Source: Coprobacillus sp. (GTDB taxonomy: Bacteria > Bacillota_I > Bacilli_A > RFN20 > CAG-826). Taken from it: a DNA stretch of 35,066 nucleotides. The translations under genes and the position numbers were made by a program. Shown here one piece after another: positions 13,720 through 35,066 of this stretch; within the stretch, counting starts at the first letter, position 1, and the number at the start of each line of letters is the position of its first letter. The stretch lies in the NCBI GenBank assembly GCA_021203745.1, contig JAJQAP010000014.1, positions 1 through 35,066 of the forward strand. Direction: 5' to 3'. Below the pieces are notes generated by a model that made no database searches, was not told where the DNA came from, and saw only the letters and a program-made list of their open reading frames with translations.

Positions 13720-13804
13720 TAGTTTTTTGTAAAAAACTACTTGCTATATCGCAAAAATAACAATAGACTAATAAAAGTTTATGAAAGAAAGGAGAATTTT
13801 TATT

Positions 13805-15544
13805 ATGAAAAAAGGATTAATGACAACACTTGCATGCTTAGCACTTGTCTTCTCTGTTACCGGTTGCGGTTCAAATGAAGGAACAGTCCGTACGATCAGA
13901 GAAGTCTTACAATATGATAATGTTACTGGTCTTTTTGTCCTTGATGGAGAAAAAGTAACCATTAAGAATGCCGTTGTTAATGGTCAACACGGCGATACTT
14001 TAACCATCGCCTTACAAACTACCTACACCACGGTTGAGGTTGTCCAAAAGAAAGCCGATCCTGATATTAAAATCAGAACCACTGTGGATGTCACAGGCAC
14101 TGTTGAAACATATCATGGTCGTTGCCGTATTGTAGACGCCACAGTTACCACAGTGGACGATACAAGACTAGCTGTCTATGTCACAGGTGGGATGACAACA
14201 TTCTCACAATTTGATTCCTTTGGTCGTACAGCCTCAGGTGTCCTTGCTACTGATGTCCCACTTCAAATCGTTTCTTTTAACGGAATAACCGAGTTTAAAG
14301 AAGGTGTAGATTCCATTCTTACCGTCTGTTACCAAGGTGATGAGGATCCAAATGACTATATTGACTTCATCGTCTGGGGTGATACAGATGAGCAAACCCT
14401 TAACTATTTAAATGCCTACTTCTTTGGCAATAACACAGGAAGCGTTGTAACATGGGACGATCCATTTAACTATGCGGATTCTCACTCTGAAATTCCTGCC
14501 ACTTGGACAGGTCTAGGTGAAAAATCCGTTATAAAAGGACTCTATCACTTCTTCTACGATGAAGAACTCGATTCATTTGGTATGGGTCCAATGTTCTACA
14601 TCGATAATATTTGTATACCATCTCTTGAAGGATACGAACTCTATGACGAAGAGAGCGCATTGACAACATTATTTGATAATCTTGCTTCAGCCTATGAATC
14701 TGGTGATGATGGTGCCTCTTACTCCGCTCACATCACATATAAGACCCTTGAAGGTACTGAAATCGATTCTAGCGAGACAACTGGTTGGGTTACTTCTGGT
14801 GATAACCTCTCACCTGAATTTGAAGATTATCTTGCTTTAGGTACCACAGAAACAGAGGATAATTGTTGGGTTAGAGCATGTCCATCACGCTTTGAAGTCT
14901 TATGGAGAGATGCTTCATTAACAAGTGGCGACTACGATTACCTCAATCAAGTATGGGTTGACTGGACCGATGAAGATGAGGAACAATGGACTGATCTATA
15001 TTACTTCTATACTGAAGATGCCTATAATACCTTCATTTCAAGCATTGCTGAAGGTGGATATCAGGGTGAATATACCCCTACGGACAATAATGCGGAATTT
15101 GTGTATACATATGAAGGCACTTGGTATTACTACTACCTTACCCTCTATGATATGGCCTACTACGATACCAGCTTCCATGATAACGGTCAGGTGACAAGAG
15201 ACATCAATGGAGAACAGTTAACCGGTACTCAATTCCTTGTTAACGATTCTAATGTCGTCCATGATCTTTGGGATTGCCTTGCCGGAAATGGATGGGGTAC
15301 TACCTATACCTGGGAAGACGAGGATCTTACTCTTCCAACCCTAGAAGATATCTTCTATGTCAAGGGTGAAGAAGATGGAAACGACTTCTTCCGTGCGACA
15401 TACGCTCGAGATACGGGCTGGTACTATAACACAACCTCACATCCAACTGGTGATGTTGTCTTCTGGGCTTCATTTACCTGGTACTGCGATGTGACAATTG
15501 GTGATAACACCATCGGTAACACTGTTACTGCTGAGAAAGACTAA
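13805..15544 (+). CDS. Lipoprotein with N-terminal OB-fold-like region (paralogue A of tandem pair)
   Basis: MKKGLMTTLACLALVFSVTGCGSN lipobox. SD gaaaggag lies between the track start (13781) and ATG13805, so 13805 is preferred. Confidence 0.82.
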   Translation: MKKGLMTTLACLALVFSVTGCGSNEGTVRTIREVLQYDNVTGLFVLDGEKVTIKNAVVNGQHGDTLTIALQTTYTTVEVVQKKADPDIKIRTTVDVTGTVETYHGRCRIVDATVTTVDDTRLAVYVTGGMTTFSQFDSFGRTASGVLATDVPLQIVSFNGITEFKEGVDSILTVCYQGDEDPNDYIDFIVWGDTDEQTLNYLNAYFFGNNTGSVVTWDDPFNYADSHSEIPATWTGLGEKSVIKGLYHFFYDEELDSFGMGPMFYIDNICIPSLEGYELYDEESALTTLFDNLASAYESGDDGASYSAHITYKTLEGTEIDSSETTGWVTSGDNLSPEFEDYLALGTTETEDNCWVRACPSRFEVLWRDASLTSGDYDYLNQVWVDWTDEDEEQWTDLYYFYTEDAYNTFISSIAEGGYQGEYTPTDNNAEFVYTYEGTWYYYYLTLYDMAYYDTSFHDNGQVTRDINGEQLTGTQFLVNDSNVVHDLWDCLAGNGWGTTYTWEDEDLTLPTLEDIFYVKGEEDGNDFFRATYARDTGWYYNTTSHPTGDVVFWASFTWYCDVTIGDNTIGNTVTAEKD

Positions 15545-15699: not shown

Positions 15700-17370
15700 A
15701 TGAAAAAGAAATTATTAACCGCTATGGCGGCCCTTGTCCTCGTCCTTGGTGTCGGGTCTACCACATCTTGTGATGGAAATAATGATGCCACCCTTTATAC
15801 AATCAGCGACCTTTTAGTGTATGATCGTTTTACCGAACAGTTTGACCTCACTGGTCAAAAAGTCAGTCTCGAAAACGTCATTGTGACATCAAGTCATGGT
15901 AATTCTATTACCGTTAGTGAATATGATGGAGTTACCGCAATCGAAGTGATTTTAGCTGATAATAGTCCTGAAGTGACAATTGAAACACTCGTCAATGTCA
16001 CAGGCACCATGAATACATATCATGGCAGAGCGCAAATTATCGATGCCACTGTCGAAACCGTCGATACTGACCAACAAAACTTCTACTACACAACAGGATT
16101 TACTCGTGCCGCTGGTTTTGATAACTACGGAAGACTCGATTCTGGTGTTATCGGTGGTGCTAGCCAAAAGACCGATGGCACATTAAGCCCAATTAAACTC
16201 AGATTAATCTCTTATAATGGAGTAAAAGAGTATAAAGAGGGTGAAGATATTATCCTTACCGTGGCTTATCAAGGAACAGATTATGATGATCCTTATAACT
16301 GGCTTGAACTAGTCCTATTTGGTGATAGTGACCAAGCCACAATTGCTTATTACAATGCCTTCTTCTTTGGCACTGATACTGCCGTCTCTTGGAGCTCTCC
16401 ATTTAGCACTGGGCGAGCGGATCGTTCGATTATCCCTGCGGGATGGACTGGTATAGCGGAGGGTGAGTACTTTGCTTGTACGCTCTTACACTTCTTCTAC
16501 GATGAAGAGTTAAACCCAGATTATGGATCAATGTTCTTCCTCGATAATGTTTGCTTACAATATATTGATAGCTTTGAACTTTACGATGAAGAATCTGATT
16601 TAGGTAATGATCTTGCTAGGTTTGAGACTGCCTTTAATGAAGGAAAAGATGTCAGCTATACAAACACTATCACCTATTCCTATAAAGAGGGTGAAACAAT
16701 TACTCTCGAAGAGTATTACTCAATGAATAGCGCTGCTTACAACCGTTATTTAAATAACCTTGAAACAATCGATAGTGATACCTTTACAGTAAAGGCTACG
16801 CAAAACTACTTTGCCTGGGAAGAAATCTACTATTCCGATCTAACTGATGAAGATAGCTTATCTTATCAAGGAGAAGTTCTTTATACCTATACTGATAGCG
16901 ATGGTTTAACTACAACCGCGCAACTAGACTTTGATGATCAAACTACCTTTAAAGCCTTCCTTGAAAGTGGAACTCTTACAAGTTACACCGATTATATTAC
17001 TTATAACTATGATGGATATGTTTGGACTGACCTAGTCTACTCACTCTTTGATCTCTTTAGTTATTACAACTATTCACGTTCATTCCATCAGACTAATACT
17101 TCCTATACATTAAACGATGACGCTTTAATCGATTATCTCTGGGATGTCCTTGATGCCTTCTTCATGGGATACTCTGATGATTATTATGACTATTATGGTT
17201 ATGCCTTTGATCTCAATAGTTTAACTTATAATAGCAACACAAACACATTAAAATCTAATTACGATTTGGGTGGATGGTACTATGCTGATACATACTATAC
17301 CTCTGTCCTATATCTTGATTATGTCGTCGATAACGTATTAGTACTAGACTTTGGGACTGAAGCTGAATAA
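15700..17370 (+). CDS. Lipoprotein paralogue B of tandem pair
   Basis: MKKKLLTAMAALVLVLGVGSTTSCDGNND lipobox. N-terminal half clearly similar to the 13805 product (VTGTxxTYHGRxxIxDATVxTVD; LHFFYDEEL...MFxxDNxC...ELYDEES). Confidence 0.82.
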   Translation: MKKKLLTAMAALVLVLGVGSTTSCDGNNDATLYTISDLLVYDRFTEQFDLTGQKVSLENVIVTSSHGNSITVSEYDGVTAIEVILADNSPEVTIETLVNVTGTMNTYHGRAQIIDATVETVDTDQQNFYYTTGFTRAAGFDNYGRLDSGVIGGASQKTDGTLSPIKLRLISYNGVKEYKEGEDIILTVAYQGTDYDDPYNWLELVLFGDSDQATIAYYNAFFFGTDTAVSWSSPFSTGRADRSIIPAGWTGIAEGEYFACTLLHFFYDEELNPDYGSMFFLDNVCLQYIDSFELYDEESDLGNDLARFETAFNEGKDVSYTNTITYSYKEGETITLEEYYSMNSAAYNRYLNNLETIDSDTFTVKATQNYFAWEEIYYSDLTDEDSLSYQGEVLYTYTDSDGLTTTAQLDFDDQTTFKAFLESGTLTSYTDYITYNYDGYVWTDLVYSLFDLFSYYNYSRSFHQTNTSYTLNDDALIDYLWDVLDAFFMGYSDDYYDYYGYAFDLNSLTYNSNTNTLKSNYDLGGWYYADTYYTSVLYLDYVVDNVLVLDFGTEAE

Positions 17371-28467: not shown

Positions 28468-29664
28468 ATGGCAAAAAAGAGAAAGAGTCTAGAAGGGATA
28501 CTGATTGATCCACGTCTTCCTGGAGATAAGCATTTACGGGTCGCCTATTTTTTAGGCTGTGGAATATGTGATAATCTTATCACCTTCGGAAAACAGTTAC
28601 CCGTATTAGAGGGAGAAGTTATCTTTGAAGATGAAGATATAGAAGCCCTTAGTTATTTAATAAACCGTGAAATCGATAGTGGACAAGACAGTGATTATAT
28701 CCTTCTCTTTGATGTTGATCTCTCTTTATCTAACTATAAACTCATTACAAAGAACTTCCCTTACCCAGTCGCGGATATCTCGATCCTTTTATATAACTAT
28801 TTGATGTCCACAAAGAAAAACGATGCTTATTCTCTTTTACTCATGAAGTTTTATGACATCCTTGAAGAAAGGGATAGACTAAGACATCTAAAAAGAATCC
28901 CACAAAAAGAGTTGAAAGTGGATTTTGAACAGTCGAGTGACGTTAATGACCAGATTAAAGAAGTCTTTTCAAAAAGAGAGAAGAAGTTTCAAAAAGCCCT
29001 CGATAGTGGTTTACCCATAATATCTGTTTTAGGCGCAGGTGCGACTTCTAAGCATATAGTCTCCTATCTATTAACACACTTTGAGTTCCCGTTAGAAGAG
29101 ACGTATTTCCGTCATGAGTTTGATTCTAGGCTCTCTTTAATTAATAACTACCAGTACCCTTCTTTTTATCTTCATAACGCTCTTCCGTTTACCACTAACG
29201 AATGTAAATACTACGACCAGTGCTTTGCGCCAATGTATGAGGAAATGGGTTATGCCTCTCTTTATATCGTTGTCGTTGATGCCTTCCAAGAAGACTATGA
29301 TGAAAGACTAAAAAAGTACGATAATTACATCAAATCGATTGCAAAAAGGAAAGATTATAAGATAATTCATCTTTTAGATGAAGATGAGTTTGCCCCTTCC
29401 CAACTTTCTCGTCTTCCTCGTGTTAATGAATATATTACCGATATAGGAGATTCTCTAGATAAGGAAGAAGTGCTCTCTTTTATCTTTGAGAGTATCTATG
29501 AAGATTGGAAAGAAGTAACCCTTTTATTACCATACGAAATTGATATTAACGCCTTTCGAAAAGAAAACTATGTTAAGAGTGTTGAAGAAACAAAAAACGG
29601 CCATCTCATAACCTGCCGTCTTAACCCATTAAATCAGGATAAATATAAAGATTATTTACTCTAA
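28468..29664 (+). CDS. HflX-like protein with degenerate (putatively non-functional) GTPase domain
   Basis: N-terminal HflX-like region (LLFDVDLSLSNYKLITKNFPYPVADISILLYNYL...LLLMKFYDILEERDRLRHLKR), HflX-like C-terminal domain (VTLLLPYEIDINAFRKENYVKSVEETKNGHLITCRLNPLNQDKYKDYL), G-domain-like middle with altered G1/G3/G4 motifs. Confidence 0.6.
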   Translation: MAKKRKSLEGILIDPRLPGDKHLRVAYFLGCGICDNLITFGKQLPVLEGEVIFEDEDIEALSYLINREIDSGQDSDYILLFDVDLSLSNYKLITKNFPYPVADISILLYNYLMSTKKNDAYSLLLMKFYDILEERDRLRHLKRIPQKELKVDFEQSSDVNDQIKEVFSKREKKFQKALDSGLPIISVLGAGATSKHIVSYLLTHFEFPLEETYFRHEFDSRLSLINNYQYPSFYLHNALPFTTNECKYYDQCFAPMYEEMGYASLYIVVVDAFQEDYDERLKKYDNYIKSIAKRKDYKIIHLLDEDEFAPSQLSRLPRVNEYITDIGDSLDKEEVLSFIFESIYEDWKEVTLLLPYEIDINAFRKENYVKSVEETKNGHLITCRLNPLNQDKYKDYLL

Positions 29665-30210
29665 ACTTAAGCCTCGTCGTTTGAGCTCTGCAACATACTC
29701 AGTATAAATTTGGTATGTGACCTGTTCGACGTTTTGAGTTTGAGAATTAACCACAAAATCGACTGTGGCAATTTGAGTAGGATCAAAAGCGGTTCTATCG
29801 TGGATGATCCTCTTTTTTGCGTCTTCGTTATTATCTCCTCTTATCATCATTCTTTCAAATCGTGTGGCTTCATCCGTTTGAAGAAAAAAGGTGATTATTG
29901 AAGGATCATTTAAGGCGATATAACTTCTTAAGCCTTTTGGATCAATAACCACACATTTATTTAATGAGATTCCTGATTTTGTACTTCCGTAGTAGTTATC
30001 GTTAAAGACGGTATACTCGACGAATTCATCATTAGATATCATCTGGTCAAACATCTCTCTAGTCACAAAGAAATAATCCACGCCATCGATTTCACCCACT
30101 CTCTTAGGTCTTGTCGTCGTGGTTATTACTTTTGTAATTCCATACTTAGAAGCAAGTAGTTTTGCTACTTCTGTTTTACCACTTGCACTTGCGCCTGCTA
30201 GAACAACCAT
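29656..30210 (-). CDS. gmk: Guanylate kinase
   Basis: VVLAGASASGKTEVAKLLASKYGITKVITTTTRPKRVGEIDGVDYFFVTREMFDQMISNDEFVEYTVFNDNYYGSTKSGI. Convergent with the upstream gene, 9-nt overlap. Confidence 0.85.
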   Translation of the reverse strand: MVVLAGASASGKTEVAKLLASKYGITKVITTTTRPKRVGEIDGVDYFFVTREMFDQMISNDEFVEYTVFNDNYYGSTKSGISLNKCVVIDPKGLRSYIALNDPSIITFFLQTDEATRFERMMIRGDNNEDAKKRIIHDRTAFDPTQIATVDFVVNSQTQNVEQVTYQIYTEYVAELKRRGLSLE

Positions 30211-30333: not shown

Positions 30334-30657
30334 ATGATTAAAAAAAATCACACACAACTAACTAGTGATGTAAAAGAAATTGCCACTCTCTATTTCTATT
30401 ATCAGTATAAGTTAAAGCACTCTCATGGACTTGGATCCACCAACTATGAAGAGTATCAGCAGACAGTGGATCGTATCGATTTAGCTTTCTCCTATTTAGA
30501 GGAGGATGAAAAAGACATCATTAATAACGAATTCTTTTATCAATCCTCACCAGATTGGTGGGAACTTACTTACTCAAAAGCGGAGTTTAATCGTAAAAAG
30601 GATTTAGCGATGAGTAAGTTTATTAACTATTTTGTTTCAGGAGGTATGGCATGTTAA
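30334..30657 (+). CDS. Small sigma-70 region 4 / ArpU-like putative regulator heading the Tad-like operon
   Basis: 107 aa. LAFSYLEEDEKDIINNEFFYQSSPDWWELTYSKAEFNRKKDLAMSKFINYF resembles sigma-region-4-like HTH proteins. SD aggagg. Confidence 0.45.
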   Translation: MIKKNHTQLTSDVKEIATLYFYYQYKLKHSHGLGSTNYEEYQQTVDRIDLAFSYLEEDEKDIINNEFFYQSSPDWWELTYSKAEFNRKKDLAMSKFINYFVSGGMAC

Positions 30658-31829
30658 AACAAGTACTTGAAACTGCGCTTATTATTGTCTTAGCGGATTC
30701 TGCTTTTAGCCCTGATCTTCCAGGTATCGACGGTTCTTTACCCACGATTACTGATTATAACTTTTCTATGGAGGTCGCCGCGGAGACCGATTTTGGAACG
30801 TATGACTACGACTTTGATAAAACCGAGTTTACTCTCCCTATCAGTATAGGCTCAGGATATAACGACTGGACCTTTACATGCACCGCTGGAGTGTACGCCC
30901 CAAAAGATGACGGAACATATGATACTTATCCCGATAATGGAGACATGGGTACATATACTTTCACTGTTGGCAAGGATGGTAATGAAATTATGCATGGGAA
31001 AACCGAAACCTATGAGGCAAAATTTACTGTCGGTTTCTTTAAAAACAAAGATTATGAGAGAGAAATTTGGGAACACCTTTATCTCGTCTTTTTTATCGAT
31101 GGAACCGCTCCAAGCGACAAAGTAATTCCTGATGATACTCCAACATCATATACCTTCTATTCCGAGTTTATACTAAGAGGATTTGGAAAGTATAAAGTTA
31201 AAGCGGGCACTAAAGAATTCTATCCAATCGATGACCATATTGTTTTTGGAGGCACTAGAGAAAATGGTAATGTCACCGAAACAGTGGACTTTTCAAGCAC
31301 AAAAGATGCGATATGTGAAGAAAAGTATCTCAGCATAAACGATTCATTTGATATTGCCTACACCGCAACAGATAGAGAATATTCGGCTAGTCCTAACATA
31401 ATCGATGCTTGGATTTATGTCGTTGATCCTAATAACTACTTTGAGTATATGCATTCAGCTTCTGTCGATAACTTTGCTATCTCTCTAGATCACGAAAAGA
31501 AAAACTCTAATGATTATATAGATAAAGATGGAAATACCGTGCAAGTTACTGGTTCTTTCTGGGTCGGGGGAGAAACATATTGGGTTGACCCAAGTACCCT
31601 AACTATGTCTTTAAAACAGGAGACTCGTTTTTACGAGGAAACCACTAATTTCTACTTTAAAGTGGGATATTACGACTTAATTAAAGAAAACTGTGAGTTT
31701 TATTTTGTGGCAAAAGACGTCGGATACAATGAAGCCACTTACATCATACCGCTCAATTTCCTTGGTGATCATGATTACTATGGATCTTGCCTAGATAGCG
31801 ATTACTGCATGCACTACGGGAGAGGCTAA
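30651..31829 (+). CDS. Uncharacterised beta-rich protein of the Tad-like operon
   Basis: 392 aa, overlaps the upstream stop by 7 nt. Acidic, aromatic, beta-rich composition, short hydrophobic N-terminus (LETALIIVLADSAF). Confidence 0.65.
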   Translation: MLKQVLETALIIVLADSAFSPDLPGIDGSLPTITDYNFSMEVAAETDFGTYDYDFDKTEFTLPISIGSGYNDWTFTCTAGVYAPKDDGTYDTYPDNGDMGTYTFTVGKDGNEIMHGKTETYEAKFTVGFFKNKDYEREIWEHLYLVFFIDGTAPSDKVIPDDTPTSYTFYSEFILRGFGKYKVKAGTKEFYPIDDHIVFGGTRENGNVTETVDFSSTKDAICEEKYLSINDSFDIAYTATDREYSASPNIIDAWIYVVDPNNYFEYMHSASVDNFAISLDHEKKNSNDYIDKDGNTVQVTGSFWVGGETYWVDPSTLTMSLKQETRFYEETTNFYFKVGYYDLIKENCEFYFVAKDVGYNEATYIIPLNFLGDHDYYGSCLDSDYCMHYGRG

Positions 31830-31831
31830 AA

Positions 31832-32206
31832 ATGGCAAATATGTTTCTCTGCATCATGTTCGCTTGTATGTTTGCGCAGTATTTCTATATCAATTTAAAT
31901 GTGCAAATACTCAACAATGCTGTAGAGAATCTCCCTGTTGCACTTGTTTCTTCCTGTGTGGATCTTAGGTTTGATTACCCATTTTTTGATCAAACGAAAT
32001 TAGAAGAGTGTGTGGGTGAATACTATGATTACTCATTAAAGGTGGTCCATGAGGTTTCTTATAGTTATTACACAAGGACAGGAGAAATTGACCTTCCTGA
32101 TGAAAATATGGCAATGGGGGTAGATATTACCTTAACGAGTAGTTTCTCAACATTCTATACATATTCAAAGACAATGTTTTATGAAATCGTAGAGGGCTTA
32201 GCATGA
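31832..32206 (+). CDS. Small TadE/pseudopilin-like protein
   Basis: 124 aa. N-terminal hydrophobic helix (MFLCIMFACMFAQYFYINLNVQILNNAVENL) plus a short extracytoplasmic part. Next start overlaps (ATGA). Confidence 0.45.
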   Translation: MANMFLCIMFACMFAQYFYINLNVQILNNAVENLPVALVSSCVDLRFDYPFFDQTKLEECVGEYYDYSLKVVHEVSYSYYTRTGEIDLPDENMAMGVDITLTSSFSTFYTYSKTMFYEIVEGLA

Positions 32207-33267
32207 CGGATAATAAAGCGCTTGGTTATATTGAAGGTTCTTTCTTAAGGCCGATATTAAATCTAAAAGGAGTGACGGATATCTCCTTTAACGGCCACGA
32301 ACTCTTCTATATGGATAATAACAGTGGAAGGATAAAATCGGATATCCAACTTACAAGCGATGAGGCTACAGACTTTATAAGACAAATTGCTAATTTATCG
32401 AAACAGCAATTCTCTTATTCAGAACCAATTCTCGATGTCACTGTGGATCTATATAGAATAAGTGCGATTCATCATTCAATTGCCCTCTACGATGGAGAGG
32501 AGGTGACGACCTTCTCAATAAGAATCGCCAGAAAGAACCTTCAAATTGATGATAGTAGTGATTTCTTTACTAAACCTTGTCGTGATTTAATACTACACGC
32601 GCTAGAAAAGAAAATCCCTATTGTTATAGGAGGAGAAACATCATCAGGAAAAACAGAACTGCAAAAGTATCTTCTCTCTAACCTTAAACAAAGCGATAGG
32701 GCAATAGTCATTGATCAAGTGGCAGAACTAGACTACTGCCACGAATACACAAGGTGCGATCTTACCATTTGGCGGTCTAACCAAGAGAGAAAGAAGGTAA
32801 CAACAGATTACCTATTAAGTGTCTCCTTAAGAAATAATCCTGACTGGATAATTGTCGCGGAGACTCGAGGGGAAGAAGTAATCAATATCATCAATTCAGT
32901 AATGACAGGACACTCAATTATTACGACAATACACGCAACAGATGCCTACTCAATTCCAGAAAAGATTGCTCTTATGTCGATGATGAGTGATAGGAAACTA
33001 GATTATGAGAGTGTCCTAAAAGATGTCTATTACCACCTACCCCTATATGTATATGTCCAAAGGGATTTTGAAGGGGGAAGAATTAAAAGATATATCAGCT
33101 CAATAATGTACGTATTACCAAATGGGGAAAAGTACTTACTCTATGATAAAGAAAGGAACAGTCCATATCTAAAAATGAATCAAAATAATCAACTTTTAAA
33201 AGATATTACACCAAAAGACATTCATATTTACGATGCTTTTGTGGAGGAAAATCATGAAAAAAAATAA
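32203..33267 (+). CDS. CpaF/TadA-type secretion ATPase
   Basis: IPIVIGGETSSGKTELQKYLLSNL Walker A; LRNNPDWIIVAETRGEEVINIINSVMTGHSIITTIHATDAYSIPEKIALM Walker B/His box. Confidence 0.88.
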   Translation: MTDNKALGYIEGSFLRPILNLKGVTDISFNGHELFYMDNNSGRIKSDIQLTSDEATDFIRQIANLSKQQFSYSEPILDVTVDLYRISAIHHSIALYDGEEVTTFSIRIARKNLQIDDSSDFFTKPCRDLILHALEKKIPIVIGGETSSGKTELQKYLLSNLKQSDRAIVIDQVAELDYCHEYTRCDLTIWRSNQERKKVTTDYLLSVSLRNNPDWIIVAETRGEEVINIINSVMTGHSIITTIHATDAYSIPEKIALMSMMSDRKLDYESVLKDVYYHLPLYVYVQRDFEGGRIKRYISSIMYVLPNGEKYLLYDKERNSPYLKMNQNNQLLKDITPKDIHIYDAFVEENHEKK

Positions 33268-33967
33268 AAATAATAATTATGTTACATACATTTTAGTTTC
33301 TCTTCTTATTGGAATTTTATTCTATCTTTCTACCTCAATGCTTCTTGTCTCTTTAGCGGTCTTTCTAGTCTTCTTTCTTTATCTTATTCTTCGTGTGGAA
33401 CGAGTCTACAAGAAGACTCAAAAGAGAAATCAGAGAGTGGACTTTGCTTATAATCTCATCAATAACACTATTTCTTCAATCAGTGTCTATGGAAATATCA
33501 ATGAAGCAGTGGATCACGCCCTAACTACTTATGATATTTCGAAAATTAAAGAGATAGGAAATATCTCAAATATGGAAGGGCTAGATAAACTTCAATATCT
33601 ATCATCTTACTTCTCCCTTCCAATCTATGATGCATTCTTAAACATCCTTGAACTATATCAAGAAAATGGTGGAAACATCCTCGATATGAGTGAGCATCTT
33701 CTTTCAGAAACAAGACAGATTCAAAACAATCTCTTATCCACGAATACCCTTTATAGGAGTAAAGCCACAAACGTGGTGATGCTTTGGATCTTTGCCCTTA
33801 TCGTTCCTGTTTTTATCCGTTTTGCCCTTGTGGATTTCTATTCATCATTGATTAGTTCCGCAATATATGTCGCAGGCATTGTATTGACCTATGCCCTTGC
33901 CCTTATCACCATTGAAATATTCTGTAACAAATTTTCAAATCAGAGAGTTAAAGGAGTGGATTTATGA
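33254..33967 (+). CDS. TadB-like inner-membrane platform protein (T2SF domain)
   Basis: N-terminal TM pair; ELYQENGGNILDMSEHLLSETRQIQNN; C-terminal TM segments. ATG33254 with SD ggagg preferred over the track start 33233. Confidence 0.7.
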   Translation: MKKNKNNNYVTYILVSLLIGILFYLSTSMLLVSLAVFLVFFLYLILRVERVYKKTQKRNQRVDFAYNLINNTISSISVYGNINEAVDHALTTYDISKIKEIGNISNMEGLDKLQYLSSYFSLPIYDAFLNILELYQENGGNILDMSEHLLSETRQIQNNLLSTNTLYRSKATNVVMLWIFALIVPVFIRFALVDFYSSLISSAIYVAGIVLTYALALITIEIFCNKFSNQRVKGVDL

Positions 33968-34647
33968 GTAAAAAGGAAAAGAAAGAGAAAAATACTACCG
34001 AAACAAAATCTAGGTCTTCCTCAAGTAAAAATACCATTTTAATCCTTGTTTGTAATATCGCCGTCATCCTTGTAGGAGCGCTCCTCGTATATTTCTATTT
34101 CTCATACATGATTATTGTAATTTTCGTTGTTGTTCTCCTTTTGATGGACTATTACTTCTACTCCCAACGCATTAATAAGAAGAAGAGGGAGCAGGAGCAA
34201 AGGGAAGAAGAGTTTATCTCACTCATTACATATTTTAAAATCTACCTCACTAATGGAATCAATGTTTATCAGTCATTACAGCTTGCCTCTTCATTCCTCT
34301 CGGAATGGATGAAAGAACAAGTTGACCAGCTCCTACAAGAAATTGATAACGATAAAACAATAAACCCATACTTAAACTTTGCTTCCCTTTTTAGTCTTCA
34401 TCATTATGAGGATGTAATGACCGCAATATATCAGCTCGTGGATCAAGGAGGTGACCCAGCTTATATGAACAAGTTTGTTTATACCTTTGAAAAGATAGAA
34501 GAAGAAGATAACAAATATCGTCACGATAAAGACGAAAGAGGCATGAATATTGTCAGTGCCCTCCCAATTGTTGGATGTTGTCTATTTACCATCTGTCTTA
34601 CCTTTGGAATTATATCGATGTTAGGAGATTTCATGGATGTCCTCTAG
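33964..34647 (+). CDS. TadC-like platform protein (T2SF-like)
   Basis: KRE-rich loop after two TM; LITYFKIYLTNGINVYQSLQLASSF...YQLVDQGGDPAYMNKFVYTFEKIEEEDNKYRHDKDERGMNIVSALPIVGCCLFTICLTFGI. ATGA overlap. Confidence 0.65.
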   Translation: MSKKEKKEKNTTETKSRSSSSKNTILILVCNIAVILVGALLVYFYFSYMIIVIFVVVLLLMDYYFYSQRINKKKREQEQREEEFISLITYFKIYLTNGINVYQSLQLASSFLSEWMKEQVDQLLQEIDNDKTINPYLNFASLFSLHHYEDVMTAIYQLVDQGGDPAYMNKFVYTFEKIEEEDNKYRHDKDERGMNIVSALPIVGCCLFTICLTFGIISMLGDFMDVL

Positions 34648-34987
34648 TCTTGGTTTAATCATCTCGATGCTATTTGTCGCTATCACCTTCATGTTTGGAG
34701 GAGACCTCCTCACCCTCCAAGCCGCTTTTACTAGTCTAGAAAACGCCGCAAATGACATTGCTTACTTTGTCGCATACTATTTCGATTTCTCTGATGAATT
34801 TGTCGCTTATCTCGAAGAAATGTATACCGTCAAAATAACAAGTGACACTGGCATATATGGTGGTGCCTATGGCGATATGGTTGATTTCTATGTCACCAAA
34901 ACAGTGGACCACTTATTCATCATGGGTACAGAGTATACCCTAACAGTAGAAAGGACAGCGATTCTAGGTTCTTATGGTTTGTTTTAA
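34637..34987 (+). CDS. Small pilin/TadE-like protein
   Basis: 116 aa. N-terminal hydrophobic helix (LGLIISMLFVAITFMFGGDLLTLQAAFTSLENAANDIAYFVAYYF), tail RTAILGSYGLF. Confidence 0.45.
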   Translation: MSSSLGLIISMLFVAITFMFGGDLLTLQAAFTSLENAANDIAYFVAYYFDFSDEFVAYLEEMYTVKITSDTGIYGGAYGDMVDFYVTKTVDHLFIMGTEYTLTVERTAILGSYGLF

Positions 34988-35025
34988 AAAATTATCGATA
35001 AAAATTAATTTAGAAAGGAGGTATT

Positions 35026-35066
35026 ATGGGAGAGTTTAATGGAGTAGTCCTTAGTATTCTACTTGT
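35026..35066 (+). CDS. Start of a further ORF in the Tad-like operon (truncated by window end)
   Basis: SD gaaaggaggt then ATG35026: MGEFNGVVLSILL... Confidence 0.55.
   Translation, partial: MGEFNGVVLSILL

Follow-up and report, generated by a model that had tools for sequence, protein, structure and literature searches.

The last genes of a 35,066-nucleotide contig from Coprobacillus sp. (GenBank assembly GCA_021203745.1, contig JAJQAP010000014.1; the whole contig is called the window here) raise the question of whether a type IV filament can be built from pilins that never lose a leader peptide. The genes form an operon on the forward strand (positions 30,334 to 35,066) in the order g1, g2, g3, ATPase, TadB-like, TadC-like, g7 and g8, with g8 being a pilin gene that is cut by the contig end. 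To our knowledge, all type IV filaments are taken to need cleavage of their prepilins as a core step. We read the operon, with a probability of about 0.55, as encoding a minimal Tad-type filament that is assembled from pilins without any leader cleavage and probably presents the g2 protein as a tip adhesin.

A preliminary description, made from the letters of the window, had proposed a compact Tad/type IVc-like operon of seven complete open reading frames (ORFs) plus one running off the edge. These ORFs are present, overlapping or nearly abutting, and the operon stands far beyond chance because the ATPase matches T2SSE with an E value of 2e-20 and the same gene order is repeated in ~45 family loci. 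The ATPase is found in all 4 genomes of the genus (the other three at 53-58% identity), and 97 of the 116 family genomes have a T2SSE score over the cut-off. Among the ~45 family loci examined, g2, g3, ATPase, TadB, TadC, g7 and g8 occur in order in ~40 and g1 was found in 37, and the order families f2, f6, f7 and f8 keep the operon as well, though in a few of these loci it is truncated or a gene was not recognised. The ATPase was not found in a scan of viral contigs. The window is the entire contig C85 of a 92-contig, 961-kb draft genome, so the operon is cut by assembly and not by biology. Its continuation was read from relatives: in the complete loci L009 and L016 all eight genes lie between gmk (opposite strand) and the acyl carrier protein gene acpP, so the sequence beyond the contig end should complete g8, the Flp-sized pilin gene, and continue into acpP. 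A complete canonical tad operon downstream is ruled out, as the complete relatives stop at g8. The operon is real, conserved and minimal Tad-type.

The N-terminus of g8 (35,026 to 35,066, cut by the contig end) carries the main argument. The ORF begins at an ATG at 35,026, 4 nt downstream of an AGGAGG, and opens with MGEFNGVVLSILL...; the claim that no Flp pilin could be recognised was an effect of this truncation. In relatives the g8 protein is 45-77 aa long with one transmembrane (TM) segment, which is the size of an Flp pilin, and it does not match Pfam Flp. The 55 copies collected (37 distinct 12-mers) begin M/V-[SGA]-E-[ILFV]-[KN]-[GA], and a Shine-Dalgarno match precedes 54 of them. Glu3 occurs in 55/55, which is partly by selection as the copies were gathered with a pattern in which position 3 had to be a Glu codon. 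[SGA]2 and [GA]6 also occur in 55/55, Lys5 in 52/55 and Gln7 in 51/55, with the residue classes at positions 5, 6 and 7 likewise fixed by the search pattern in the extra g8 loci. An earlier, looser search that did not require Glu3 recovered the same g8 genes, and g8 was missing in only ~5 of the 47 loci searched, with no variant seen in any of these. A residue of the [SGA] class at position 2 is the requirement of methionine aminopeptidase; it is present in 20% of the genes of the closed 1.06-Mb genome G127, taken as the genome background. Conservation of positions 2 and 3 is not expected in a leader that is cut off and lost, so the g8 N-terminus appears to be retained, and from its sequence g8 is likely to be independent of a peptidase.

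No match to the A24 prepilin peptidase family (PF01478) was obtained in the genome to which the window belongs. Across relatives, A24 scores over the cut-off in 1 of 116 family genomes and 8 of 196 order genomes, and these eight (G041, G054, G090, G156, G178, G196, G204 and G212) are exactly the genomes that have a canonical PilB (E 1e-121 to 1e-137; Fisher p 2e-14 for the association, not corrected for phylogeny). The eight PilB loci are separate from the operon and hold the peptidase near PilB together with FTLxE-type prepilins, whose leaders are varied, mostly longer and K/R-rich. These peptidases indicate that A24 belongs to the PilB system and that PF01478 works in this clade. Among ~129 genomes having only the Tad-like ATPase (~50 loci inspected, the rest counted from ATPase scores) none has A24 over the cut-off. 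Additionally, all ORFs of G127 were scanned for polytopic GxGD proteins, and none was prepilin-peptidase-like by inspection. A sub-threshold match in G136 proved false, lying antisense to a phosphoribosyl-pyrophosphate synthetase-like ORF. A control search did not find A24 in 2 of 14 reference genomes (Bacteroides and Lactococcus), either of which may be a miss; a peptidase of very divergent sequence could therefore have escaped detection. TadV was found neither in the genome of the window nor at the locus. TadZ/CpaE is absent from the complete loci L009 and L016 and was not seen in the other loci inspected, no genome-wide search having been made. The preliminary description had noted that TadZ, CpaB, a secretin and a prepilin peptidase were missing from the window and had called the machine non-canonical; both points stand, and the complete relatives still lack TadV or TadZ. 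Our literature search for peptidase-free pili found no report. Separate type IV pilus loci of the order also encode proteins of 741-970 aa that have a prepilin motif of the classical type at the start (FTLIELVVVMAVIAILAG or a similar one; L097 10129-12354, L127 2035-4647 and L133 9064-11976).

The 354-aa ATPase (32,203 to 33,267) belongs to the TadA/CpaF/VirB11 superfamily (PF00437, 2e-20). Its motifs are intact, as had been stated from the window: the Walker A GGETSSGKT, NNPDWIIVAETRG and TGHSIITTIHATD. The match to the TadA model TIGR03819 (2.9e-34) is below the equivalog cut-off, and the structural matches include CpaF, VirB11 and archaeal GspE. The TadB-like protein (33,254 to 33,967; 4 TM segments; start at the ATG at 33,254, which is supported by a ribosome binding site, with a longer ORF start at 33,233) and the 227-aa TadC-like protein (33,964 to 34,647; 3 TM segments) each give weak Pfam signals when searched singly. 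Aligned as families by hhalign, the two match each other at 96% (E 1.2e-9). The TadB family hidden Markov model (HMM) matches annotated canonical TadB at 3e-5, and T2SSF is detected in 8 of 26 TadC members (best 3.5e-4, below the cut-off). A second divergent T2SSE ATPase was observed in L056 (G019:C89), beside a ribbon-helix-helix-like gene; it groups with TrbB on a long branch and likely belongs to a mobile element.

The remaining structural genes are g2, g3 and g7. The 392-aa g2 protein (30,651 to 31,829) has a hydrophobic N-terminus and is predicted to be secreted and beta-rich, with a C-terminal GxCxxSxYC motif. Its gene is present in 41 loci and the sequence is variable, with the C-terminal C-x5-C motif nearly invariant in the alignment; no relatives were found in Pfam, NCBIfam or PDB. 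The g3 protein (31,832 to 32,206; 124 aa; N-terminal TM segment from residue 4) is minor-pilin-like and is kept in 42 loci, and its HMM matches plasmid proteins in the same position (best 1.2e-7). The g7 protein (34,637 to 34,987; 116 aa; TM segment from residue 5), a pilin-like minor subunit, is found in 44 loci, all 44 with S/G/A at position 2. Its AlphaFold model, of fair confidence (predicted local distance difference test score, pLDDT, 84.9), has a 47-residue helix (2-48), a second helix (53-63) and a 3-stranded sheet, which is the layout of a type IV pilin. Both small proteins had been called TadE-like; neither matches a TadE model, and what survives of the proposal is the pilin-like architecture predicted for g7.

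The best matches of the ATPase in a plasmid collection are Gram-positive conjugative plasmids. In pHT-beta, pLIS25 and pLS20 a large surface adhesin gene (with an isopeptide or thioester domain) is followed in order by g3, ATPase, TadB, TadC and g7. Two small genes lie between the adhesin gene and g3 in pLS20 and pHT-beta, and in pLIS21 the machine is present with no adhesin gene just upstream. The shared order of g3, ATPase, TadB, TadC and g7 in the four plasmids is recognised by HMM, with the pLS20 proteins matching the chromosomal families at 7e-5 (g3), 8.5e-75 (ATPase), 2.4e-11 (TadB), 4e-13 (TadC) and 9e-7 (g7). In a tree with long branches and an unknown root, the ATPases of chromosomes and plasmids form one group (94/96 support) apart from the CpaF, VirB11, TrbB and PilB references. 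As with the operon, no A24 peptidase is annotated near the plasmid module. The module differs in being plasmid-borne beside type IV secretion system genes (VirD4, p028 family), none of which was recognised in the window, and homology of its small pilin-like peptide (MLDxNxDR...) to g8 is detectable in the Bacillus contig L012 only. The pLS20 ATPase is already named tadA in the plasmid record; in a literature searched mostly without subscription papers, we found none that describes these genes together as a module of Tad type. The plasmid loci that carry the module are L245, L246, L248, L249 and L250; its genes are mostly annotated as hypothetical proteins, and adhesin genes adjoin it in three of the loci. 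By analogy with the position of the plasmid adhesin genes, g2 is a candidate tip adhesin. Reduced forms of the operon were found in families f3 and f4 (L221-L229), which have g1-g2-g3-platform-like-g7 without the ATPase or g8. By hhalign their proteins match the operon families at 95.7% (g2), 95% (g3), 96% (g7) and 62% (platform), and these ATPase-less forms suggest that g2, g3 and g7 are one functional unit.

The operon shares with the Tad/Flp systems (type IVc; Caulobacter CpaF, Aggregatibacter TadA) a TadA/CpaF-type ATPase with intact Walker motifs beside two adjacent single-domain T2SSF platform proteins, and an Flp-sized pilin without a globular domain that is accompanied by small minor-pilin-like proteins. 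It differs in having no TadV, TadZ, RcpC/CpaB or secretin at the locus, in the additional genes g1 and g2, in an ATPase that falls outside the CpaF references, and in a pilin without a long leader. Glu5 and Tyr6, which characterise the Tad leader pilin, are not found in g8 whether residue 2 or residue 7 is taken as the first. Judged by sequence, the operon departs from Tad in two defining features, TadV and the Glu5-Tyr6 leader pilin. Another Tad machine in a reduced-genome member of the Bacillota is that of Bulleidia extructa (Erysipelotrichales), whose locus differs in having 13 genes with tadV first and two pilA genes (PMC12786226). The locus for mannose-sensitive haemagglutinin (MSHA) pili likewise contains no prepilin peptidase, but the genomes that carry it always hold another system that supplies one (PMC6668835), whereas none was found here.

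We infer that in this host, a single-membrane, genome-reduced gut bacterium, the operon would build a minimal type IVc-like surface filament in the following way. The g8 protein would be inserted with its N-terminus in and its C-terminus out, and methionine aminopeptidase would take off Met1 to leave an already mature [SGA]-E-x-[KN]-[GA]-Q N-terminus. The TadA-like ATPase would then power the TadB/TadC platform, pulling g8 from the membrane and polymerising it. The minor pilins g3 and g7 may prime the tip and also bear or display g2, a Sec-secreted protein that may bind a surface or a cell. No prepilin peptidase would be used, and in the mature pilin the usual pairing of Glu5 with the N-terminus may be replaced by Glu2 and Lys4. 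The most likely function of the operon is attachment through such a filament.

Several points weigh against this reading. The filament is predicted from the genes. The adhesin role of g2 is drawn from its position, the plasmid adhesins do not match the g2 HMM, and a structure model of g2 from 4 sequences gave no usable fold (mean pLDDT 31). The g7 model, pilin-like in layout, has no significant PDB or viral match in Foldseek. Major pilins normally need Glu5 (PMC4471445), and the K5-[GA]6 of g8 before its hydrophobic stretch also resembles a short type IV (class III) leader, type IV leaders ending in Gly or Ala (PMC10191384). The last resemblance would be explained if the operon encoded a Tad-type pilus of the ordinary kind, with a pilin whose leader (MSEIKG) is removed after Gly/Ala6 by a peptidase from outside the A24 family or by one too divergent to be detected. 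A prepilin peptidase is otherwise a core component (PMC10191384), and the only exception named in a review is the Nanoarchaeota, in which none was detected (PMC4471445). Cleavage of this kind is unlikely, although it is the alternative that we take most seriously: Glu3 and the small residue at position 2 would be unneeded in a discarded leader, the N-terminal stretch is always six residues long whereas the leaders of true prepilins from the same order vary in length and charge, the closed genome has no GxGD candidate, and Gly6 and Gly10 may instead serve helix packing.

It is doubtful that the operon encodes a Tad-derived secretion device, or pseudopilus, which exports or anchors g2 and in which g8 never forms a long filament. 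The persistence of g2, g3, g7 and a platform-like protein in f3 and f4, where the ATPase and g8 are gone, would fit such a device with g2-g3-g7 as its core unit, as would the fact that g2 carries its own secretion signal, but the g8 N-terminus is strongly constrained wherever the ATPase is present. Type IV filaments and pseudopili are, moreover, mechanistically one class with length as the dividing line. A competence (DNA-uptake) pilus is improbable. ComEC is encoded in this genome (C4) and in 106 of 196 order genomes, and Flp-pilus-dependent transformation has been reported (PMC4322843). However, ComEC is also found in many genomes without the ATPase (for example in f5) and does not track it, its borderline scores in f1 make absences unreliable, and the operon contains no com genes. 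We give practically no credence to the idea of a non-functional fragment that is decaying or was misassembled; the operon does run into the contig end, but intact, overlapping genes that are conserved in ~45 loci with ribosome binding sites and constrained motifs refute it.

The first gene, g1 (30,334 to 30,657), encodes a soluble 107-aa protein that probably regulates the operon. It had been described as sigma-r4/ArpU-like and as a phage-like regulator. The C-terminal motif is indeed sigma-region-4/ArpU-like (WWxxxYSxxxYYRxKxxAxxxFL), but the ArpU similarity is marginal (weak in 5/23 aligned relatives, best 9e-5), and the protein belongs to the MG284/MPN403 family of Mycoplasma. It matches NF045770 at 64.1 bits (E 8.3e-18; curated cut-off 37.3), as do 23/23 of the relatives, which rules out a phage origin as the main explanation; the family is a chromosomal one. 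Three genomes with genetic code 4, Mycoplasma-like (L231, L238 and L240), have a g1 homologue followed by a ~380-aa protein, a ~140-190-aa protein with one TM segment and acpP, and unlike in the operon the g1 homologue had no ATPase, platform or pilin gene next to it in the loci read. The middle proteins were rejected as homologues of g2 and g3, there being no profile similarity and synteny only. In L234, g1 is near acpP with two genes between, the first of which differs from that in the other three. The arrangement in these four loci resembles the MG284-MG287 neighbourhood of Mycoplasma. Stand-alone g1 homologues were also found in L191-L220 (families f20 and f25), and those of f25 often immediately precede a ptsI-like gene whose product starts MLKGIAAS. 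These stand-alone copies suggest that MG284-family proteins act as regulators in several contexts.

Outside the machine, gmk (29,656 to 30,210, reverse strand; guanylate kinase, PF00625 1e-21) is the conserved upstream neighbour and occupies this position in L009, L015 and L016 as in most relatives. The window also holds two adjacent lipoprotein-like genes (13,781 to 15,544 and 15,700 to 17,370) for proteins of 587 and 556 aa that are alike at the start and have no Pfam match.

Minimal mycoplasma genomes carry MG284-type genes of unknown function, to which the operon gives a context. A whole family of gut-type Bacilli with a motor, a platform and a pilin but no peptidase makes the cleavage rule directly testable. 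A tentative extension, to which we give somewhat less than an even chance, is that a peptidase-free lineage of type IV filaments exists in which the pilins are translated mature (Met removed, [SGA]-E-x-K-G/A) and in which the same machine would provide Gram-positive conjugative plasmids of the pLS20 type with an unrecognised mating filament presenting a Tie-like adhesin. If this is true, the lineage would contradict the view of leader cleavage as universal.

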